A stretch of DNA of 64,000 nt from Neomicrococcus aestuarii. GTDB lineage: Bacteria > Actinomycetota > Actinomycetes > Actinomycetales > Micrococcaceae. The DNA lies in NCBI RefSeq assembly GCF_014201135.1, contig NZ_JACHDR010000001.1, positions 2,418,001-2,482,000 on the forward strand. Reading direction: 5' to 3'. How positions within the stretch are numbered: the first letter of the stretch is position 1; the number at the start of each line of letters is the position of its first letter. The notes under the pieces were generated by a model, which saw only the letters and a program-made list of their open reading frames with translations, was not told the DNA's origin and did no database searches. Shown here in pieces: positions 32,045 to 41,277 of the stretch. The position numbers and the translations under genes are program-made.

Positions 32045-33676
32045 GTGACATCGCAGGCATCTGAACAGGATCCGGCCCTGAATAGCTCGGAAAACTCGGC
32101 AGCGACCCCGGACGCGCGCCCTGTCATCGTTGTTGATTACGGTGCACAGTACGCGCAGCTGATCGCTCGCCGTGTCCGCGAAGCGAACATCTACTCTGAG
32201 ATTGTTCCTCATACCCACTCCACGGCCCAGATTCTGGCTAAGAATCCAGCCGCGATCATCCTCTCCGGCGGACCGTCTTCGGTGTACGCCGAGGGAGCTC
32301 CTAGCGTGGGCGCTGACCTCTTTGAAGCAGGAGTTCCTGTCCTCGGTATTTGCTATGGCTTCCAGGCTATGGCGAAGGCTTTGGGTGGAACTGTTGCAAA
32401 GACTGGTCTGCGCGAATACGGCGCTACGGATGCCACCTCTGAGGGTGGAAGCCGTTCGGTACTGGCTGGTTTGCCAGAGGTGCAGAACGTCTGGATGAGC
32501 CACGGCGACTCCGTGTCTGAGGCTCCCGAAGGCTTCGAGGTTCTTGCCACCACGGCAGGCGCCCCAGTTGCTGCATTCGCTGACGCTGAGCGCAAGCTCT
32601 ACGGCGTGCAGTGGCACCCAGAGGTGAAGCACTCGGACTACGGACAGCGTGTGATCGAGAACTTCCTTAAAAACGAGGCAGGCCTTGAGCCCGTGTGGAC
32701 CGCCGGCAACATTGTTGAAGAGCAAGTCGCCAAGATCCGCGAACAGATCGGCGAGAACGGTCGAGCCATTTGTGGTTTGTCCGGCGGCGTTGACTCTGCC
32801 GTTGCTGCCGCAATCGTGCAGCGCGCCATCGGCGATCGCCTCACCTGTGTGTTCGTGAACCACGGCCTGCTCCGTCAGGACGAGGCTGAGCAGGTGGAGC
32901 GCGACTTCGTGGCTTCCACCGGTGCAAAGCTTTACGTTGCGAACGAGCAAGAGCGCTTCTTGAGCGCGCTGGCTGGCGTCACGGATCCCGAAGAAAAACG
33001 CAAGATCATTGGCCGCGAGTTCATTCGCGCGTTTGAGGCTGCAGAGGCTGCTGTCTTGAACGACGCCGCAGCCAGCGGTGGGAAGGTCGGTTTCTTGGTA
33101 CAGGGCACCCTTTACCCGGACGTGGTTGAGTCCGGTGGAGGCGAAGGCGCCGCCAATATCAAGAGCCACCACAACGTGGGCGGTCTTCCCGAGGATCTCG
33201 AGTTCGCGCTCGTTGAACCCCTGCGCACCTTGTTCAAGGACGAAGTTCGCGCCGTTGGCGCAGAGCTGGGCTTGCCAAGCGAAATTGTGCAGCGTCAACC
33301 GTTCCCAGGACCAGGCCTCGGTATCCGCATCATCGGTGAAGTTACCGAAGAGCGACTCGAAACCCTGCGTGCAGCGGACGCGATTGCTCGCGCCGAGCTG
33401 ACCGCAGCAGGCTTGGATCAAGAAGTCTGGCAGATGCCTGTTGTGCTTTTGGCAGACGTTCGCTCCGTGGGTGTTCAAGGCGATGGCCGTACCTACGGTC
33501 ACCCGATTGTCTTGCGCCCCGTCTCCAGTGAAGACGCCATGACGGCCGACTGGTCACGACTTCCGTACGATCTGTTGGCTCGCATCTCCAACCGCATCAC
33601 GAACGAAGTCGACGGAGTGAACCGTGTGGTTCTCGACGTCACCAGCAAGCCACCAGGAACCATCGAATGGGAGTAG
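32045..33676 (+). CDS. guaA: GMP synthase (glutamine-hydrolysing)
   Basis: Aminates XMP to GMP. The class I glutaminase domain (about 20-215) has the nucleophile Cys in [12 protein letters not shown] near residue 103 and the HPEV histidine near 193. The ATP-pyrophosphatase P-loop [12 protein letters not shown] is near 246, and the C-terminal dimer domain ends with the typical PPGTIEWE. At 543 aa it is a full-length enzyme. The 3' end of guaA is a known integration site in some bacteria, but I see no duplicated guaA end here. Confidence 0.97.
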
Positions 33677-33749: not shown

Positions 33750-33804
33750 CCGCGGCGACTCGGCTAACGTGGAAGTGAAAACTTCTGCGGCCGAGTCGCC
33801 GCGG
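33750..33804. promoter_or_regulatory. Long perfect hairpin in the 5' region of the DUF4011 gene
   Basis: CCGCGGCGACTCGGC (33750-33764) and GCCGAGTCGCCGCGG (33790-33804) pair perfectly over 15 bp. Inside lies GAAGT-GAAA-ACTTC, a second stem capped by a GNRA tetraloop. No T tract follows on either strand, so it is not a standard terminator. It lies 59 bp before the start codon of the next gene and could act on its mRNA, or cap the guaA transcript. Confidence 0.55.
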
Positions 33805-33863: not shown

Positions 33864-36800
33864 GTGACTACAACAGATTCACACCAGGACGTGTTTTCGT
33901 CGTGGATGAAATCTTTGGGCACGGGGGCGGGAACCGATACGCTCATCCGTTTCGCTGGCTCAAAGTCCAACAGCATTGACCTGACGCACGCCCATCCCTC
34001 GGGCCTCTCGCAGTTCTTGATGGGTCGCAAGACGCGACTGTCCATGTTGCTACGTGACCGCGAAACGTATCTCGAAGCGGCCACTGTAGCAGCGCACCTC
34101 GTAGCGAAGATCAGCGAGCTCAGCGAAGACCGCGGAATCGACGTTGGCTATGTTGCCGCTGGCGTGACGTCGTGGCGGGCCATCGTCAACGGTCGCAGCG
34201 AGCAGTTCGGTGCACCAGTCATGCTGGGCAAAATCACGTTGGTTCGTCGCGAAGAAGATGACGACTACGACGTTCAGATCACCGAACGCGCAAGCGCCAA
34301 CCCGGCACTGTTGCGACACTTGGCTCGCGAGCTCGACGTCCACTTGTCCGCTCAGCAGCTCAACGCGTCCGCTTACACCACGGCCCGTTTCGACCCCCAC
34401 GCAGCGCTGGCTGTGGTTCGCCGCGAAACCACCGAGCTACCTGGCTTCTATGCCCAGGACCAGATTCTGATCTCCACCTTTGCGGATTTGGTTGACCCCG
34501 CAGATCCAGACCACGTGGACCCCACGCACCCTGTGATCGGCCGCCTCATCGCAGCCCATGCGCAAGAACTCGAGGGGGATTCGGCACCGCTGCTGGGAGC
34601 CTCCGTCGCCGCACCTGAATCTACGGATCCTGCAGATGCGAACACTCCCGCCTCAAACGACCCCGAAGTTACGGAAGTAGCCAGCGAGACCGCAGCTGCG
34701 TCGTCGTCCTTTGAATTCCCGGAACCGCAGGTGGAGCACCCCTCTTCCGATGAGCGGCACCCCGCGGATGAATTCCTGGTGCTCGATGCTGACGCAAGCC
34801 AGCAGCACGTCCTGGATTATGTTGCCGCCGGTGAATCCATTGTGGTCAATGCGGCTGCCGGCGCCGGTCAGACACAGACCGCTGTCAACGCCGTGGCGCA
34901 ATTGGTGCGTGACGGTAAGCGCGTGCTGGTGGTGGCCGAGCGCAAGAACACCGCGCGTGGCTTTGTAGAGCGCCTCGAATCCCTCAAGCTCGATTCGATT
35001 GCCGCCCACCTCACGCCTCAGTTTGGGGTCGAAGAACTTCGCACCAAACTCACTCAAGCCATTCTGCGTAACGAGCGAGCCACCGAGCCAAAGCTCGAAA
35101 AGCTCCACGAGACTCTCGTGGCGCACCGCCACGCCTTAGTGGATCATGTGGCCTCCCTCCACACGGTTCGTGAGCGCTGGCAGTGCTCGCCGTACCAGGC
35201 CATGCAAGAACTTGCGGCCCTCACGGCATTGAATCCAGCCCCGGCAACGGAAGTGCAACTCAAGCGTTCAGTTCTGGACACGTTGCTGGAGCGGACCGAT
35301 GTTGCCGCGAAGCTAGAACGAGCCGCTGAGCTGGGCTCCTTCTCTCGCACTGCCGCAGATAAGCCGTGGTACGGCGCTAAGGTGCGTAACCGCCAGTCGG
35401 CAGAGGCCGCGCTGGAACTCGTCGAGAGCCTCAAGAAGGACTTCGATCCGCTCAAGGACCGTCTTGCCAGGACGGCCGAGCAATCCCAGATTCGCCCCGG
35501 CAACACGTTTGAGCAGTGGCGCGAACAGCTCGACATGCTCATCACCGTGCGTGGCTCACTGGACAAGTTTGAGCCGGATATCTTTGACCACTCGGTGGAA
35601 GACCTCATCGCGGCAACCAGCACGTCCGCCTGGCGCCGTGCTAACAAGGTGGAGATGAGCTCCATGACGCGCTCGCGCTTGCGCCGCGTCGCCAAGGAAT
35701 TCGTGCGTCCGGGTGTTCACCTCACGGACCTGCACGAAGCACTCATCGACGTTCAAGTACAGCGCGAGCGGTGGCAGAAGTACGCCACCAGCCAGCGCCA
35801 CCCGTCCGTGCCGTTGGGGCTGGGCGAACTCAAGCGCGAGTTTGAGTCTGTGGCAGAGCGACTCCAGAAGCTTGCCGAACTGCTGCCGGATCAGCAGTCC
35901 ATGAACGTTGAACAGCAAAGCATCGAGGACCTGAGTAAACGACTCAAGGACTTGGCCGCTGATACGGACACCTTGCGCATCTTGCCAGAGCGCAACATCC
36001 TTGAAGACCAGCTCAAGGAGCGCGGACTCTCCGAGTTCGTCGATGACTTGCGCACTCGCGAAGTTCGCGCTGATCTGGTCAAGGACGAGCTCAACCTGGC
36101 ATGGTGGCGCTCCGCCCTGGTAGCCATGATCAGCGGCGACGATTTCTTGGCCATGTCAGACGGCAACATGCTGCGCAAGATCGAAGCCGAGTACCGCTTG
36201 GCAGATGCCGCTCATGTGCACTCCGGTGCGGATCGCTTGCGCTGGAGCCTTGCCAAGAACTGGCGAGACGCCCTCGCAGACCACCGCGCGGCTTCGCGCG
36301 ATCTGCGCACCATGATCAAGATCGGGGACCCCACCCTCGATCAGTTCGCCGCGCTACCCACTGCCTTGGTGAATTCGATGGTTCCTGTGTTGGTGGGTTC
36401 GCCACTGCACTTGGCTTCGCACATTCCATCCACCATGGTCTTTGACGCCGTTATCCTTCTGGACGCATACTCGCTGTCCTTGCGCTCGGCAATCGGCGTG
36501 ATCTCTAAGTCATCCCAGGTCATCGCGTTCGGCGACAAGATGCTAGGCGCACCTCGCGGCTTCGAAGTATCTGTGGACCCCACGGCAACGAGCCGCGAAC
36601 CAGACGAACCGCGCAGCGCCTTGCAACAGCTGAGCACCGTGTTGCCTACGTGCTCGCTGGAGAAGGTATACCGCGGCGTTGACGAGCGCCTCACCGCCTT
36701 GCTGAGCGAGTGGTACTACAACTCTGAGTTGGAACGTCTGCCTGGTTCTCGCGCCTTCTCTGGTGCGTTCCCAAGCCTGTCCGCGGAGTATGTCCAGGAC

Positions 36801-37970
36801 GGCACCGGCGTGCCGAGCATCCCCACCCAGCCAGTTGAGTCCACGATCGCCGAAGTGAACCGCGTAGTGGACTTGGTGTTCGCGCACATTCGCCGCCGTC
36901 CGCAGCACACGCTTGCCGTGGTGGCCGGTAACGAGGCGCATGCCCGCAAGATCGCCGAAGCAATTCGCATCCAGCTGCCGAACTACCGTTGGGCCAGCGA
37001 ATTCTTCAAGTCCCAGCAGGAGCCATTCGTCGTCACGAGCGTTCAGCGTGCACATTCTGTAGAACGTGACGCCGTGATCTTCGCTCTTGGTTTCGCACGC
37101 AATACCCATGGCAAGGTCTCCCACCAATTTGGTTTGCTCAGCGAGCCGCAGGGCGACGAATACCTGGTCAGCGCCCTGACACGCCCACGAGTGTCACTTC
37201 AGCTGGTCTCCTCCCTGCGTAAGGGGGACGTGGACTGGGATCGTTTGAGCTCCGCTCCGCGCTTCTTCTTGACGCTCATGGGACGTTTGCTTGACGGTGA
37301 ATCCGGTTTCAAGGGCGAGGGCCAAGCAATTGAGGACCCGTTGGTGCGGGATCTCAAGGAGCGTTTGGAAATGTTGGGCGCTCGCGTTCAGCAGTCCTAC
37401 CGAGGTGTGCTGGATATGGCCGTGGCGTCGCGCGACGCCGAAGTGGCCAAGGGTCAGCACCCGCTAGCCGTGGTGTCCGACGGTACCCAGAGCTACCGCT
37501 CGTTGAGCGTGCGCGAACGCAGCCGCCTTCGACCGCAGCGCCTCGAAACAATGGGCTGGCGCTACATTCCGTTGTGGACCATTGACGTCTTCAGCGATCC
37601 AGAGACCGTATCGCAACGACTGGGCGAGTACCTGGGCCTGTTCACGGCATCGGAACCAACTCCGTCGACTTCTCAGGAGGACAGCGTGGCACCAGACCAA
37701 CAAGCAGCTGCAGCTGGCAACGTCGAAGCGTCGGACGCTGTTGTACCGGATTCCGGCACCGCGCAGGAAGACGCTGCGCAGCAATCGGATTCGGAGCCAA
37801 TGAACGTCACGGTAGTCCCACCGAAGCCGACCACTATCAAGGACATTCCTCCGGCGAGTGCGGTACTTCCGCGCGTTGCTAAGGAAGATGATCCTCGAGC
37901 GTGGGGCGATCGCGAAGACTCGAACCATGACCAGTGGCTCAAGGAGCAGCGTCCTCCGCATTGGGGCTAA
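33864..37970 (+). CDS. DUF4011 / SF1-helicase-like / MTES_1575-nuclease-like protein with degenerate active sites
   Basis: Very large protein, 1368 aa. Residues about 10-130 resemble DUF4011 (SIDLTHAHPSGLSQFLMGRK, then YVAAGVTSW). A superfamily 1 helicase core follows: Walker A region AAAGAGQTQT with Gln336 where Lys is expected, motif II region VILLDAYS with Ala868 where Glu is expected, and a late FGLLSEPQGDEYLVSALTRPR segment. A long coiled, charged region (about 430-760) splits the core. Residues about 1165-1265 resemble the MTES_1575 nuclease fold, but the usual E-C-D reads V-S-D at 1204-1206. The low-complexity acidic tail ends the protein. The frame is intact over 4.1 kb, so it is kept by selection despite losing obvious catalysis. 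Function unknown; the 3' end overlaps the convergent SAF gene by 32 bp. Confidence 0.75.
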   Translation: MTTTDSHQDVFSSWMKSLGTGAGTDTLIRFAGSKSNSIDLTHAHPSGLSQFLMGRKTRLSMLLRDRETYLEAATVAAHLVAKISELSEDRGIDVGYVAAGVTSWRAIVNGRSEQFGAPVMLGKITLVRREEDDDYDVQITERASANPALLRHLARELDVHLSAQQLNASAYTTARFDPHAALAVVRRETTELPGFYAQDQILISTFADLVDPADPDHVDPTHPVIGRLIAAHAQELEGDSAPLLGASVAAPESTDPADANTPASNDPEVTEVASETAAASSSFEFPEPQVEHPSSDERHPADEFLVLDADASQQHVLDYVAAGESIVVNAAAGAGQTQTAVNAVAQLVRDGKRVLVVAERKNTARGFVERLESLKLDSIAAHLTPQFGVEELRTKLTQAILRNERATEPKLEKLHETLVAHRHALVDHVASLHTVRERWQCSPYQAMQELAALTALNPAPATEVQLKRSVLDTLLERTDVAAKLERAAELGSFSRTAADKPWYGAKVRNRQSAEAALELVESLKKDFDPLKDRLARTAEQSQIRPGNTFEQWREQLDMLITVRGSLDKFEPDIFDHSVEDLIAATSTSAWRRANKVEMSSMTRSRLRRVAKEFVRPGVHLTDLHEALIDVQVQRERWQKYATSQRHPSVPLGLGELKREFESVAERLQKLAELLPDQQSMNVEQQSIEDLSKRLKDLAADTDTLRILPERNILEDQLKERGLSEFVDDLRTREVRADLVKDELNLAWWRSALVAMISGDDFLAMSDGNMLRKIEAEYRLADAAHVHSGADRLRWSLAKNWRDALADHRAASRDLRTMIKIGDPTLDQFAALPTALVNSMVPVLVGSPLHLASHIPSTMVFDAVILLDAYSLSLRSAIGVISKSSQVIAFGDKMLGAPRGFEVSVDPTATSREPDEPRSALQQLSTVLPTCSLEKVYRGVDERLTALLSEWYYNSELERLPGSRAFSGAFPSLSAEYVQDGTGVPSIPTQPVESTIAEVNRVVDLVFAHIRRRPQHTLAVVAGNEAHARKIAEAIRIQLPNYRWASEFFKSQQEPFVVTSVQRAHSVERDAVIFALGFARNTHGKVSHQFGLLSEPQGDEYLVSALTRPRVSLQLVSSLRKGDVDWDRLSSAPRFFLTLMGRLLDGESGFKGEGQAIEDPLVRDLKERLEMLGARVQQSYRGVLDMAVASRDAEVAKGQHPLAVVSDGTQSYRSLSVRERSRLRPQRLETMGWRYIPLWTIDVFSDPETVSQRLGEYLGLFTASEPTPSTSQEDSVAPDQQAAAAGNVEASDAVVPDSGTAQEDAAQQSDSEPMNVTVVPPKPTTIKDIPPASAVLPRVAKEDDPRAWGDREDSNHDQWLKEQRPPHWG

Positions 37971-38721
37971 TCACGAGGGACACTTTTCCTTCGCTTGTTG
38001 CCCCGGCGAGCTGTGCAGCATCGGCTTCCGGGGCCGCCACAATGATGGTCCCTGGCTGACTGTTGCCACTGGAGAGCCATGAGCTAGAACCTTCTGAGCT
38101 GTCGCCATTCCACAGAACCGTGACGTTGCGTGCAATCACCCGTGACTGCGTGGGTGCCTCGTACCCATTGCCGGTGGTCAGGATGACGTTCACTCTCATG
38201 CCCGGGCGCAGGATTGCTGTTCCTTCCGCATCGGCGGCGCGCACCGGAACGGCAGACGTTCCAGTCGGTGCACCGGTGAGCAGACCCGGTCCCACCAACG
38301 AAGCGGCCGGCACCGGAGCTCCGCGTTCAAGGGGAACCGCGAGCTGCTGTCCCACAACCTCCGTCAGCTCCCGAGTAGAGCTCGGAGGAATAGCATCAGA
38401 CGCCAACTGAACCGTCACCAAGTCACCAGCGGCGAGGTGGTGACCAGCGGGAAGATCCCGCACCGCCGTCAGCACGGACCGGGTGGGTTCAATCCGCGGT
38501 CCAAAGTGCAATAGGGCTAACGCGACAGCAGCGCCGGCCAACAGTGCGGCTAGCGGGCGCCGGTATCGAGCTTTCCACTCCGTCAAGGTACGCCGTTGCC
38601 GCCGCCGTGCAGGCCGGGATGAAGCGGAAACTCTTGGCGGCGCGAGGGTGCTTCGCTCCGACTTGCGGGCTGCCAAGCCGGAGCGGGGGAGTGTTGAGCG
38701 GTGTGGCGTATTCCTATTCAC
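37939..38721 (-). CDS. SAF-domain (CpaB/RcpC-like) membrane protein
   Basis: 260 aa. An Arg-rich cytoplasmic N terminus (1-55) precedes one membrane helix, RPLAALLAGAAVALALLHFG (about 54-73). The external SAF domain starts with the typical VRDLPAGHHLAAGDLVTVQL near residue 86. Proteins like this include the Flp pilus assembly factor CpaB, but no other tad/flp gene is in the window, so a pilus role is only possible. Its stop lies inside the 3' end of the convergent DUF4011 gene. Confidence 0.72.
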   Translation of the reverse strand: MNRNTPHRSTLPRSGLAARKSERSTLAPPRVSASSRPARRRQRRTLTEWKARYRRPLAALLAGAAVALALLHFGPRIEPTRSVLTAVRDLPAGHHLAAGDLVTVQLASDAIPPSSTRELTEVVGQQLAVPLERGAPVPAASLVGPGLLTGAPTGTSAVPVRAADAEGTAILRPGMRVNVILTTGNGYEAPTQSRVIARNVTVLWNGDSSEGSSSWLSSGNSQPGTIIVAAPEADAAQLAGATSEGKVSLVISPNAEDAAP

Positions 38722-40518: not shown

Positions 40519-41277
40519 ATGGCAGACCAGGCACCACTCAAGATCAACTATGGGCGACTCGCTGTCGCCGCAGTTGGTCTCCTTGCCTTCGTCACGATGT
40601 TGGTCGCCGGCATCCTTGCGCTCGCAGGCAAAGGAACGGGTGGCCTCAGCTTCTCCATGCTCCTGATCGTCTTTGCATCTTTCGTCGGATTGCGGGCTCT
40701 TGCCTTGCGAGCACGCCAGCGCCGCGCCATGGAACGCGTGCAGCAAGCGTTTGCTGACGCCATGAATCCGCACTTCGATAATTCCATTGACGAAGATGAC
40801 CGCCCACGGCTCGCCATTGCCTCGGATTACAAAGGACCAAGCCGCCCTTTTGACGCACAGGCCGTCGAACCGGCCGAAGGTACCGCAACGAACTCCTCCT
40901 CGCGGGGCACGGCACACGCCGTAACCGGCGCGCAACTGGCCGCTGAAGAGGAAGCCGCGGAGGCGTCGTCGTCCTCCCAGAAAAGCACTCAGGACAGCAC
41001 GCTGACCTCGAAGCTCGCGCGCGAAGAATGGGAACCAGTAAACGTTCCTAAGCCGCTCTACACCGAAGCGCCAGTGATCAAGCGCGACGTCGCGGAACCA
41101 CTTCCAAAGCCGGAAGAAAAGAAAGCGACCCCCGGAGCGCCCAGCATCCGTCAGTCAGAAGATTTGGCTCGCGTAGTTCATCGCGCCGGAACCGATGCCC
41201 TAATTCAGGGATACGCAGAGTCCCTGGAAACCGGCCGCATCGACATTGACAAGGTCCTTCGCCGCCGTCGCGCCTAA
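40519..41277 (+). CDS. Hypothetical membrane protein with long charged cytoplasmic tail
   Basis: 252 aa, no family recognised. Two hydrophobic helices (about 13-36 and 42-61) are joined by a short loop, LAGKGTGGLS. A basic ARQRRAMERVQQAF stretch follows and suggests the rest is cytoplasmic. The tail to residue 250 is acidic and Ser/Ala-rich and ends in a short conserved-looking segment, AGTDALIQGYAESLETGRID. It converges on the response-regulator gene. Confidence 0.7.
   Translation: MADQAPLKINYGRLAVAAVGLLAFVTMLVAGILALAGKGTGGLSFSMLLIVFASFVGLRALALRARQRRAMERVQQAFADAMNPHFDNSIDEDDRPRLAIASDYKGPSRPFDAQAVEPAEGTATNSSSRGTAHAVTGAQLAAEEEAAEASSSSQKSTQDSTLTSKLAREEWEPVNVPKPLYTEAPVIKRDVAEPLPKPEEKKATPGAPSIRQSEDLARVVHRAGTDALIQGYAESLETGRIDIDKVLRRRRA

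Follow-up and report, generated by a model that had tools for sequence, protein, structure and literature searches.

The window analysed here, a stretch of 64,000 nucleotides from Neomicrococcus aestuarii (contig NZ_JACHDR010000001.1, positions 2,418,001 to 2,482,000 of the forward strand), carries on its plus strand, at positions 33864-37970, a single uninterrupted frame of 1368 amino acids that opens with a GTG at 33864, ends with a stop at 37970 and is preceded by the Shine-Dalgarno-like sequence GAGAGAGGAC. Both ends match those of the orthologue in a sister species, and the preliminary description of an intact frame free of stops is borne out. By its sequence the encoded protein is a pseudoenzyme, a helicase-nuclease without its catalytic motifs; it is under strong purifying selection, and it ends in a conserved segment, here called the PPHW module, which in most relatives is encoded separately behind the large gene.

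Pfam analysis of the protein gives a DUF4011 match at residues 78-153 (23.0 bits, cut-off 22.2), an MTES_1575 nuclease match slightly below its cut-off (35.6 bits, E 1e-8, cut-off 38.2) and only weak traces of AAA or helicase families. The same MTES_1575 model scores 43.4 bits with the orthologue at locus L090, and an orthologue that keeps the helicase motifs (L081) gives 67.4 bits with AAA_11 and 75.2 bits with MTES_1575. When the N. aestuarii genome was searched with the whole protein and with DUF4011, the only match in each case was the gene itself, and no compensating active paralogue was found by either search. The gene and its parts, all on the plus strand, are:

33864-37970, +, pseudo-helicase-nuclease gene, 1368 amino acids, C-terminal PPHW module fused (open frame; single genome match)
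33864-34568, +, N-terminal DUF4011 region, residues ~1-235 (Pfam 23.0 bits; ratio of nonsynonymous to synonymous substitution rates, dN/dS, 0.037)
34569-34739, +, fast-evolving linker, residues 236-292, the internal control for selection (dN/dS 0.72)
34848-34886, +, degenerate motif I or Walker A, residues 329-341, Gln336 in place of Lys (alignment)
35061-36368, +, large helical insert between motifs Ia and II, residues 400-835 (identity profile; AlphaFold2 model)
36453-36473, +, degenerate motif II, residues 864-870, DEAS replaced by LDAY (alignment)
36525-36554, +, degenerate motif III, residues 888-897, GD retained and Gln gone (alignment)
37335-37631, +, MTES_1575/Vsr-like nuclease domain, residues 1158-1256, Glu gone (Val1204) (Pfam; alignment)
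37650-37871, +, disordered linker, residues 1263-1336 (predicted local distance difference test, pLDDT, below 50)
37884-37967, +, PPHW module, residues 1341-1368, EDDPRAWGDREDSNHDQWLKEQRPPHWG, fused (locus comparison; pLDDT 66-69 for the last 29 residues)

The state of the active sites was assessed in an alignment of 109 rows from one actinobacterial order, the scope of the orthologue comparisons, comprising 47 rows of the window's own family (f1), 58 rows from 18 other families and four paralogues; we left out 14 near-duplicates, one truncated locus and six rows that duplicated a genome already present. Family f1 is over-represented in this sample, with several species per genus, and family f16 is not in it. 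The Walker A motif of the window protein reads AAAGAGQTQT, with Gln336 at the position of the Lys, and in the nuclease site V1204-S1205-D1206 the Glu has become Val1204 while D1184 and D1206 are retained, both as first described. For motif II the preliminary reading LLDAYS holds, and its assignment of the lost Glu to Ala868 does not: FDEAS corresponds to L865-L866-D867-A868-Y869, so that D has become L866 and E has become D867, and A868 aligns with the conserved Ala of DEAS across the 109 rows. The acidic pair is lost in either register. The damage, as aligned, is more extensive than the three sites named at first, for motif Ia has also lost characteristic residues, and so have motif III (Gln), motif IV (Trp-His), motif V (Lys-Asn, Gln, Glu) and motif VI (Arg-Arg-Asn). 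When 11 motif-keeping rows (seven orthologues and four paralogues) were compared with 92 motif-less rows, setting aside six rows of family f17 (five without the Lys, and L115, which keeps both Lys and DE), the residues of motifs I, Ia, II, III, IV, V and VI proved to go missing together. A string search of the whole window protein found neither [AG]xxxxGK[ST] nor DEAx at any other place, so that a relocated motif is rejected and the objection that catalysis might reside elsewhere in the protein fails. Among the 118 degenerate loci, 19 contain an [AG]xxxxGK[ST] string elsewhere and one (L117) a DEAH string; judged by position, these stray strings were rejected as relocated motifs. A predicted helicase fold whose catalytic motifs are gone, the mark of a pseudohelicase, is thus what the window protein presents.

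The gene is close to universal in the order: counting any match, paralogues included, 394 of 395 f1 genomes and 243 of 248 genomes of the order are positive, among them three f4 genomes of 0.8-1.1 Mb with matches at E 1.5e-79 or better (genome search only). Lys336 and the DE pair are lost in all 47 f1 rows. Eight of the 58 rows from other families keep the Lys, and the same eight keep DE; they are both f5 rows and six of the eleven f17 rows, and one f12 row is gapped at the position. The motif-bearing genes at L077, L078, L081, L082 and L112-L114 are all followed by mscL, and on that ground we treat them as same-locus orthologues. In other families the P-loop may be eroded throughout (DEQTGRESAED in L090, DAPLGADVAGT in L086), and the catalytic motifs have eroded differently from family to family. 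On a quick tree of 82 of the 109 rows, rooted on the four paralogues, a single clade with a support of 100 (Shimodaira-Hasegawa-like approximate likelihood ratio test) unites 67 Lys-less rows from 16 families, and adjoining it is a clade of f5 and f17 in which both motif states occur. Judged from this clade of 16 families, the decay of the motifs is old rather than recent. Three changes of the Lys state are required on the tree, and its starred branches force three; a single clade of all Lys-less rows is not rejected by the approximately unbiased test (p 0.295). The nuclease Glu changes at least 13 times on the 82-row tree and is labile, and loss of the nuclease site is patchier than that of the helicase, the complete D-E-D triad being present in 14 of the 47 f1 rows and 12 of the 58 others. 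It had been proposed that orthologues retaining Lys and Glu would make this a recent decay. Such orthologues do exist, in f5 and f17 only, whereas the clade points to an older loss; recent decay in one species is also rejected by the absence of the Lys from every f1 row, by the low dN/dS and by the open frame in both genomes of the genus.

That the pseudoenzyme is maintained, as initially supposed, is supported by its rate of evolution. We estimated dN/dS by the Nei-Gojobori method for one pair, the window and the sister species (84% amino-acid identity), at a dS of 1.28, which is near saturation. The value was 0.084 for the whole gene, 0.037 for the DUF4011 region, 0.082 for the motif I region, 0.030 for the motif II-IV region and 0.085 for the nuclease, compared with 0.72 for linker residues 236-292, which serve as a built-in control. 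The gene is under strong purifying selection, and 170 positions are at least 95% conserved among the 47 f1 rows. Judged from the identity profiles, the focus of conservation appears to have shifted away from the motor and towards the insert. Pairwise identity among the seven motif-bearing orthologues peaks in the motif II-IV region (72%, with the insert at 47-48%); within f1 that region ranks last among the structured regions by a narrow margin (45.5%, with DUF4011 at 46.3%) and insert residues 400-620 rank first (58%).

Structure prediction, also suggested at the outset, indicates that the helicase chassis is an Upf1-like fold of superfamily 1 (SF1). AlphaFold2 modelled residues 290-1284 from a 52-row alignment with a pLDDT of 90.4 and a predicted template modelling score of 0.79. 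The top Foldseek rows were spliceosome chains (one named Aquarius), senataxin, UPF1, DNA2 and IGHMBP2, with query TM-scores that are low (0.18-0.32) because the model has several domains. Alignment with VIA-align gave Z scores of 19.9 for IGHMBP2 (371 residues, 3.7 Å), 18.7 for UPF1 and 17.8 for DNA2, a comparison that spans model residues 1-856 and barely covers the nuclease part. RecC and AddB were absent among the best 50 structural rows, which is no evidence either way.

The C-terminus of the window protein follows its disordered linker and reads EDDPRAWGDREDSNHDQWLKEQRPPHWG (WGD...LKEQRPPHW). This module was overlooked in the preliminary description. Many relatives have a shorter large frame, and the sequence is then found in a short open reading frame (ORF) directly behind it. 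We counted the module at 120 orthologue loci, relaxing the last residue to W, Y, H, F or A, and found it at 116 of the 118 that could be assessed. It is fused at 33 loci, separate with a near start (within -30 to +60 nt of the stop of the large gene) at 79 and separate without a near start at four; two loci lack it and two lie at contig ends. The 79 separate ORFs encode 51-151 amino acids, and 34 of them have a 4-nt NTGA overlap with the large gene, a number to be read knowing that the start was taken as the candidate nearest the stop overlap, a choice that favours overlap. A reversed-motif control gave none at the 118 loci, and none of the four paralogues has the module. In the fetched loci, which total 1.32 Mb including the window and contain six genomes twice, 101 of 102 frames ending in PPHW lie within 760 nt of the stop of the orthologue; the exception, 3.2 kb downstream, belongs to L091, which is among the two loci counted as lacking the module. 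PPH is invariant within the 116 modules because the search required it; W comes next in 93% of them, and conserved D/E, L and R/K positions lie further upstream. A basic patch is present in 61 of 83 separate proteins. Four separate proteins that were tested had no Pfam or NCBIfam match, and the entries listed in a literature search for 'PPHW', in which most subscription journals were outside the scope, look unrelated.

The tree requires at least 14 changes between the fused and separate states (75 rows), and the fusion state is therefore labile. The module also accompanies the motif-bearing genes, as a separate ORF at L077, L078 and L112-L114 and fused at L081 and L082, and is therefore independent of the loss of the motor. 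A separate arrangement is exemplified by Actinomyces oris WVU627, where the gene order is WP_271289505.1, WP_271289504.1, mscL, SAF and 5-formyltetrahydrofolate cyclo-ligase. The first of these is annotated as a 'DNA helicase', an annotation that its own sequence does not support, since the motifs are lost (DAPPGSDVAGT, AVLDAST); the second, a 'hypothetical protein' directly behind it, ends in NDARLRRDVPPHWG. In a second AlphaFold2 run that included the tail, the last 29 residues of the window protein formed a short helix with a pLDDT of 66-69, after a linker at 32-53. We also considered PPHW as a general C-terminal tag in the N. aestuarii genome, which was not supported: there are 20 PPHW-coding sites and equally 20 for the backward control pattern, only the 1368-residue gene ends a long frame in PPHW, and a chance PPHW, lacking the remainder of the motif, occurs two residues before the end of two short frames (29 and 57 codons). 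At L077, L083 and L152 (A. oris) there is an extra C-terminal segment after the nuclease with the pattern SDG...RRG...DA; it is absent from the window protein and by eye resembles the DUF3320/winged helix-turn-helix (wHTH) end of other DUF4011 proteins.

We favour, with a probability of roughly 0.45, the explanation that the product of the gene is a pseudo-helicase-nuclease of ancient origin, retained as a nucleic-acid-binding scaffold and acting with the PPHW module as its partner. An Upf1-like SF1 fold with its helical insert, together with DUF4011 and the Vsr-like nuclease domain, is predicted still to fold, but the residues for motor function, and in the window's lineage the nuclease Glu also, are gone from it; the gene has a common origin with the same-locus genes of f5 and part of f17 that retain the motifs. 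The protein would then be a core component that works by binding, as a nucleic-acid-binding scaffold or clamp, much as RecC and AddB do for their active partners. A binding scaffold best explains a helicase-nuclease fold that is strongly selected and motor-less, by analogy with RecC, AddB and PriA. The small PPHW protein, separate behind the large gene in most relatives and fused to it here, may act together with the large protein, as its fusion and tight linkage predict, and by the same gene-fusion logic the two probably make physical contact. The gene is near-universal, its locus is conserved and even genomes of 0.8-1.1 Mb have matches, all of which argues for a housekeeping rather than a defence role. 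Several points weigh on the other side. In active SF1 helicases the nucleic acid is contacted by residues of motifs Ia, IV and V, which have decayed here too, so that binding along the ancestral track cannot be taken for granted. The basic patch is missing from the fused window protein, the prediction for the tail is compatible with a structured peptide and is not proof of docking, and the relatives of the protein include known and candidate anti-phage proteins. We regard as distinctly tentative the more far-reaching idea of a core complex of the order, apparently retained even in genomes of ~0.8 Mb, in which the dead helicase-nuclease and a PPHW microprotein would carry out an essential transaction on DNA or RNA through binding alone. 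On this idea the PPHW peptide would act as the tag by which the complex docks to a universal machine, whether replisome, RNA polymerase or ribosome, and the loss of the motor would have been an early adaptive switch from enzyme to scaffold.

RecC and AddB are UvrD-like with PD-(D/E)xK nuclease folds and have known active partners, unlike the window protein, which is predicted to be Upf1-like, has DUF4011 and a Vsr-like nuclease domain, and for which we know of no active partner. The likeness lies in inactive domains within larger helicase-nuclease machines, RecBCD and AddAB: according to the respective papers, a non-catalytic nuclease-like domain of RecC handles DNA (PMC1185551) and a helicase-like region of AddB has a regulatory role (PMC4824097). 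The PriA of Deinococcus radiodurans is described as a pseudohelicase with decayed motifs and no ATPase that retains DNA binding and has a partner (PMC4504706); it differs from the window protein in helicase family, in phylum and in that its ancestral role is known. An identical domain order, with clear homology, is seen in the DUF4011-SF1-MTES_1575 helicase-nucleases, a group that includes the anti-phage proteins ProA and Hhe as well as PDC-S37. A DUF4011 gene can belong to the core genome of other bacteria too: in Pseudomonas aeruginosa one flanks a defence hotspot in all isolates examined (PMC10250203). The paralogues L057 and L067-L069 keep GTGKSQT and FDEAS, neither of which the window protein has, and none of them has the PPHW module, which the window protein does. 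The nuclease domain takes its name from MTES_1575 of Microbacterium testaceum, described as a protein that exceeds 2100 residues and carries HEPN and two wHTH domains (PMC3710099); it has the same kind of architecture and is a different gene. A literature text search, in which most subscription journals were outside the scope, found no description of the window gene, and the main text of a Schaalia odontolytica transposon study (PMC12369343) does not mention helicase, MscL or DUF4011. In our judgement very large near-universal genes of unassigned function are rare in well-sampled bacteria. Here a helicase-nuclease has turned into a maintained pseudoenzyme, with motif-bearing (f5, f17) and dead forms coexisting at one locus, so that the switch from enzyme to pseudoenzyme can be studied directly; a small-protein family is also exposed, whose fusion to the large protein predicts a complex.

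An alternative to the scaffold, and an unlikely one, is a nucleotide sensor in which the altered P-loop GxGQTQT binds ATP or GTP without hydrolysis as a conformational switch, with guaA, the gene upstream, hinting at a link to guanine nucleotides. Apart from the Lys, the f1 P-loop is indeed well kept: 35 of the 47 rows have Q336, 42 have T337, and G333 and T339 show at least 95% conservation. Against this, adjacency to guaA is specific to f1, and other families, among them those of L090 and L086, keep the gene with the whole P-loop eroded, which makes nucleotide binding unlikely as the shared function. Less probable again is a defence protein, a degenerate relative of the DUF4011 anti-phage helicases ProA, Hhe and PDC-S37 that serves as a regulator, decoy or trip-wire. 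The best PADLOC matches are PDC-S37 (E 1.1e-95) and Hhe (1.7e-33), NCBIfam returns ProA (E 3.4e-83) and Hhe (5.2e-35), and DUF4011 relatives are common on plasmids (323 records). The NCBIfam scores are nevertheless far below their cut-offs (280.1 of 1500 bits for ProA, 120.3 of 2000 for Hhe); with PDC-S37, a model without a stated cut-off, the window protein scores 319.7 bits against 803-837 for three motif-intact relatives; and the near-universal distribution at a conserved chromosomal locus contrasts with the patchy spread expected of defence genes. Phage records give one weak match. All 323 plasmid records are below 60% identity and one covers at least 80% of the query, an A. oris replicon with mscL and SAF following as usual; a phage or plasmid origin was rejected.

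Further down we place a motor-independent nuclease, in which the helicase part is dead and the Vsr-like domain still cuts, possibly via other residues, a proposal that we consider improbable. The complete D-E-D triad is found in 14 of the 47 f1 rows, all of them helicase-dead, and in 12 of the 58 others, and D1184 and D1206 remain in the window protein; against this, 33 of the 47 f1 rows, the window included, are without the complete triad, Val is the commonest residue at 1204 (21 of 47), and the families with RIPLAV have lost the first Asp too. Finally, a relic under weak constraint, open by chance, for which one might cite the differing erosion of the motifs among families, is scarcely credible given a dN/dS of 0.084 against 0.72 for the linker of the same gene in the one species pair, the absence of internal stops from either genome of the genus and the 170 conserved positions in f1.

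The neighbours of the pseudo-helicase-nuclease gene in the window are:

32045-33676, +, guaA, upstream neighbour (domain search; locus comparison)
33750-33804, +, perfect 15-bp inverted repeat in the interval between guaA and the gene (repeat search)
37939-38721, -, convergent SAF/CpaB-like gene with a 3' overlap of 32 bp (open frame; domain search)

The gene had been described as conserved directly beside guaA, which is true of f1, where guaA is immediately upstream at 33 of 36 loci with flanks (it is absent at two loci of genus g3, L034 and L035, and one contig end is unassessable), and does not extend to the other families. There guaA was not detected in the fetched flanks, and mscL or SAF lies downstream at 48 of 60 loci, convergent in all 48 except L139 and L147. 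L034 and L035 have an eroded P-loop (GTEPLRT), and the P-loop of L038 and L045 is eroded too. Often the f1 neighbourhood also contains surf1, a DUF3817 gene, the SAF/CpaB gene and a GNAT gene. The same neighbourhood occurs at the Nesterenkonia cremea locus L003, a species that we take to belong to the Micrococcaceae, in keeping with the family named in the preliminary description. In the overlap at 37939-37970 the PPHW-coding 3' end of the gene faces the 3' end of the SAF/CpaB gene. The inverted repeat at 33750-33804 has a loop of 25 nt and recurs in the sister species (L032) with one base pair changed; of eight other loci examined, seven have none and one has an unrelated 14-nt repeat. Further downstream, 40519-41277 gives a weak match, below cut-off, to the divisome protein SepX/GlpR (E 3.2e-6), and a GNAT-SepX pair stays close to the pseudoenzyme gene in several genera.

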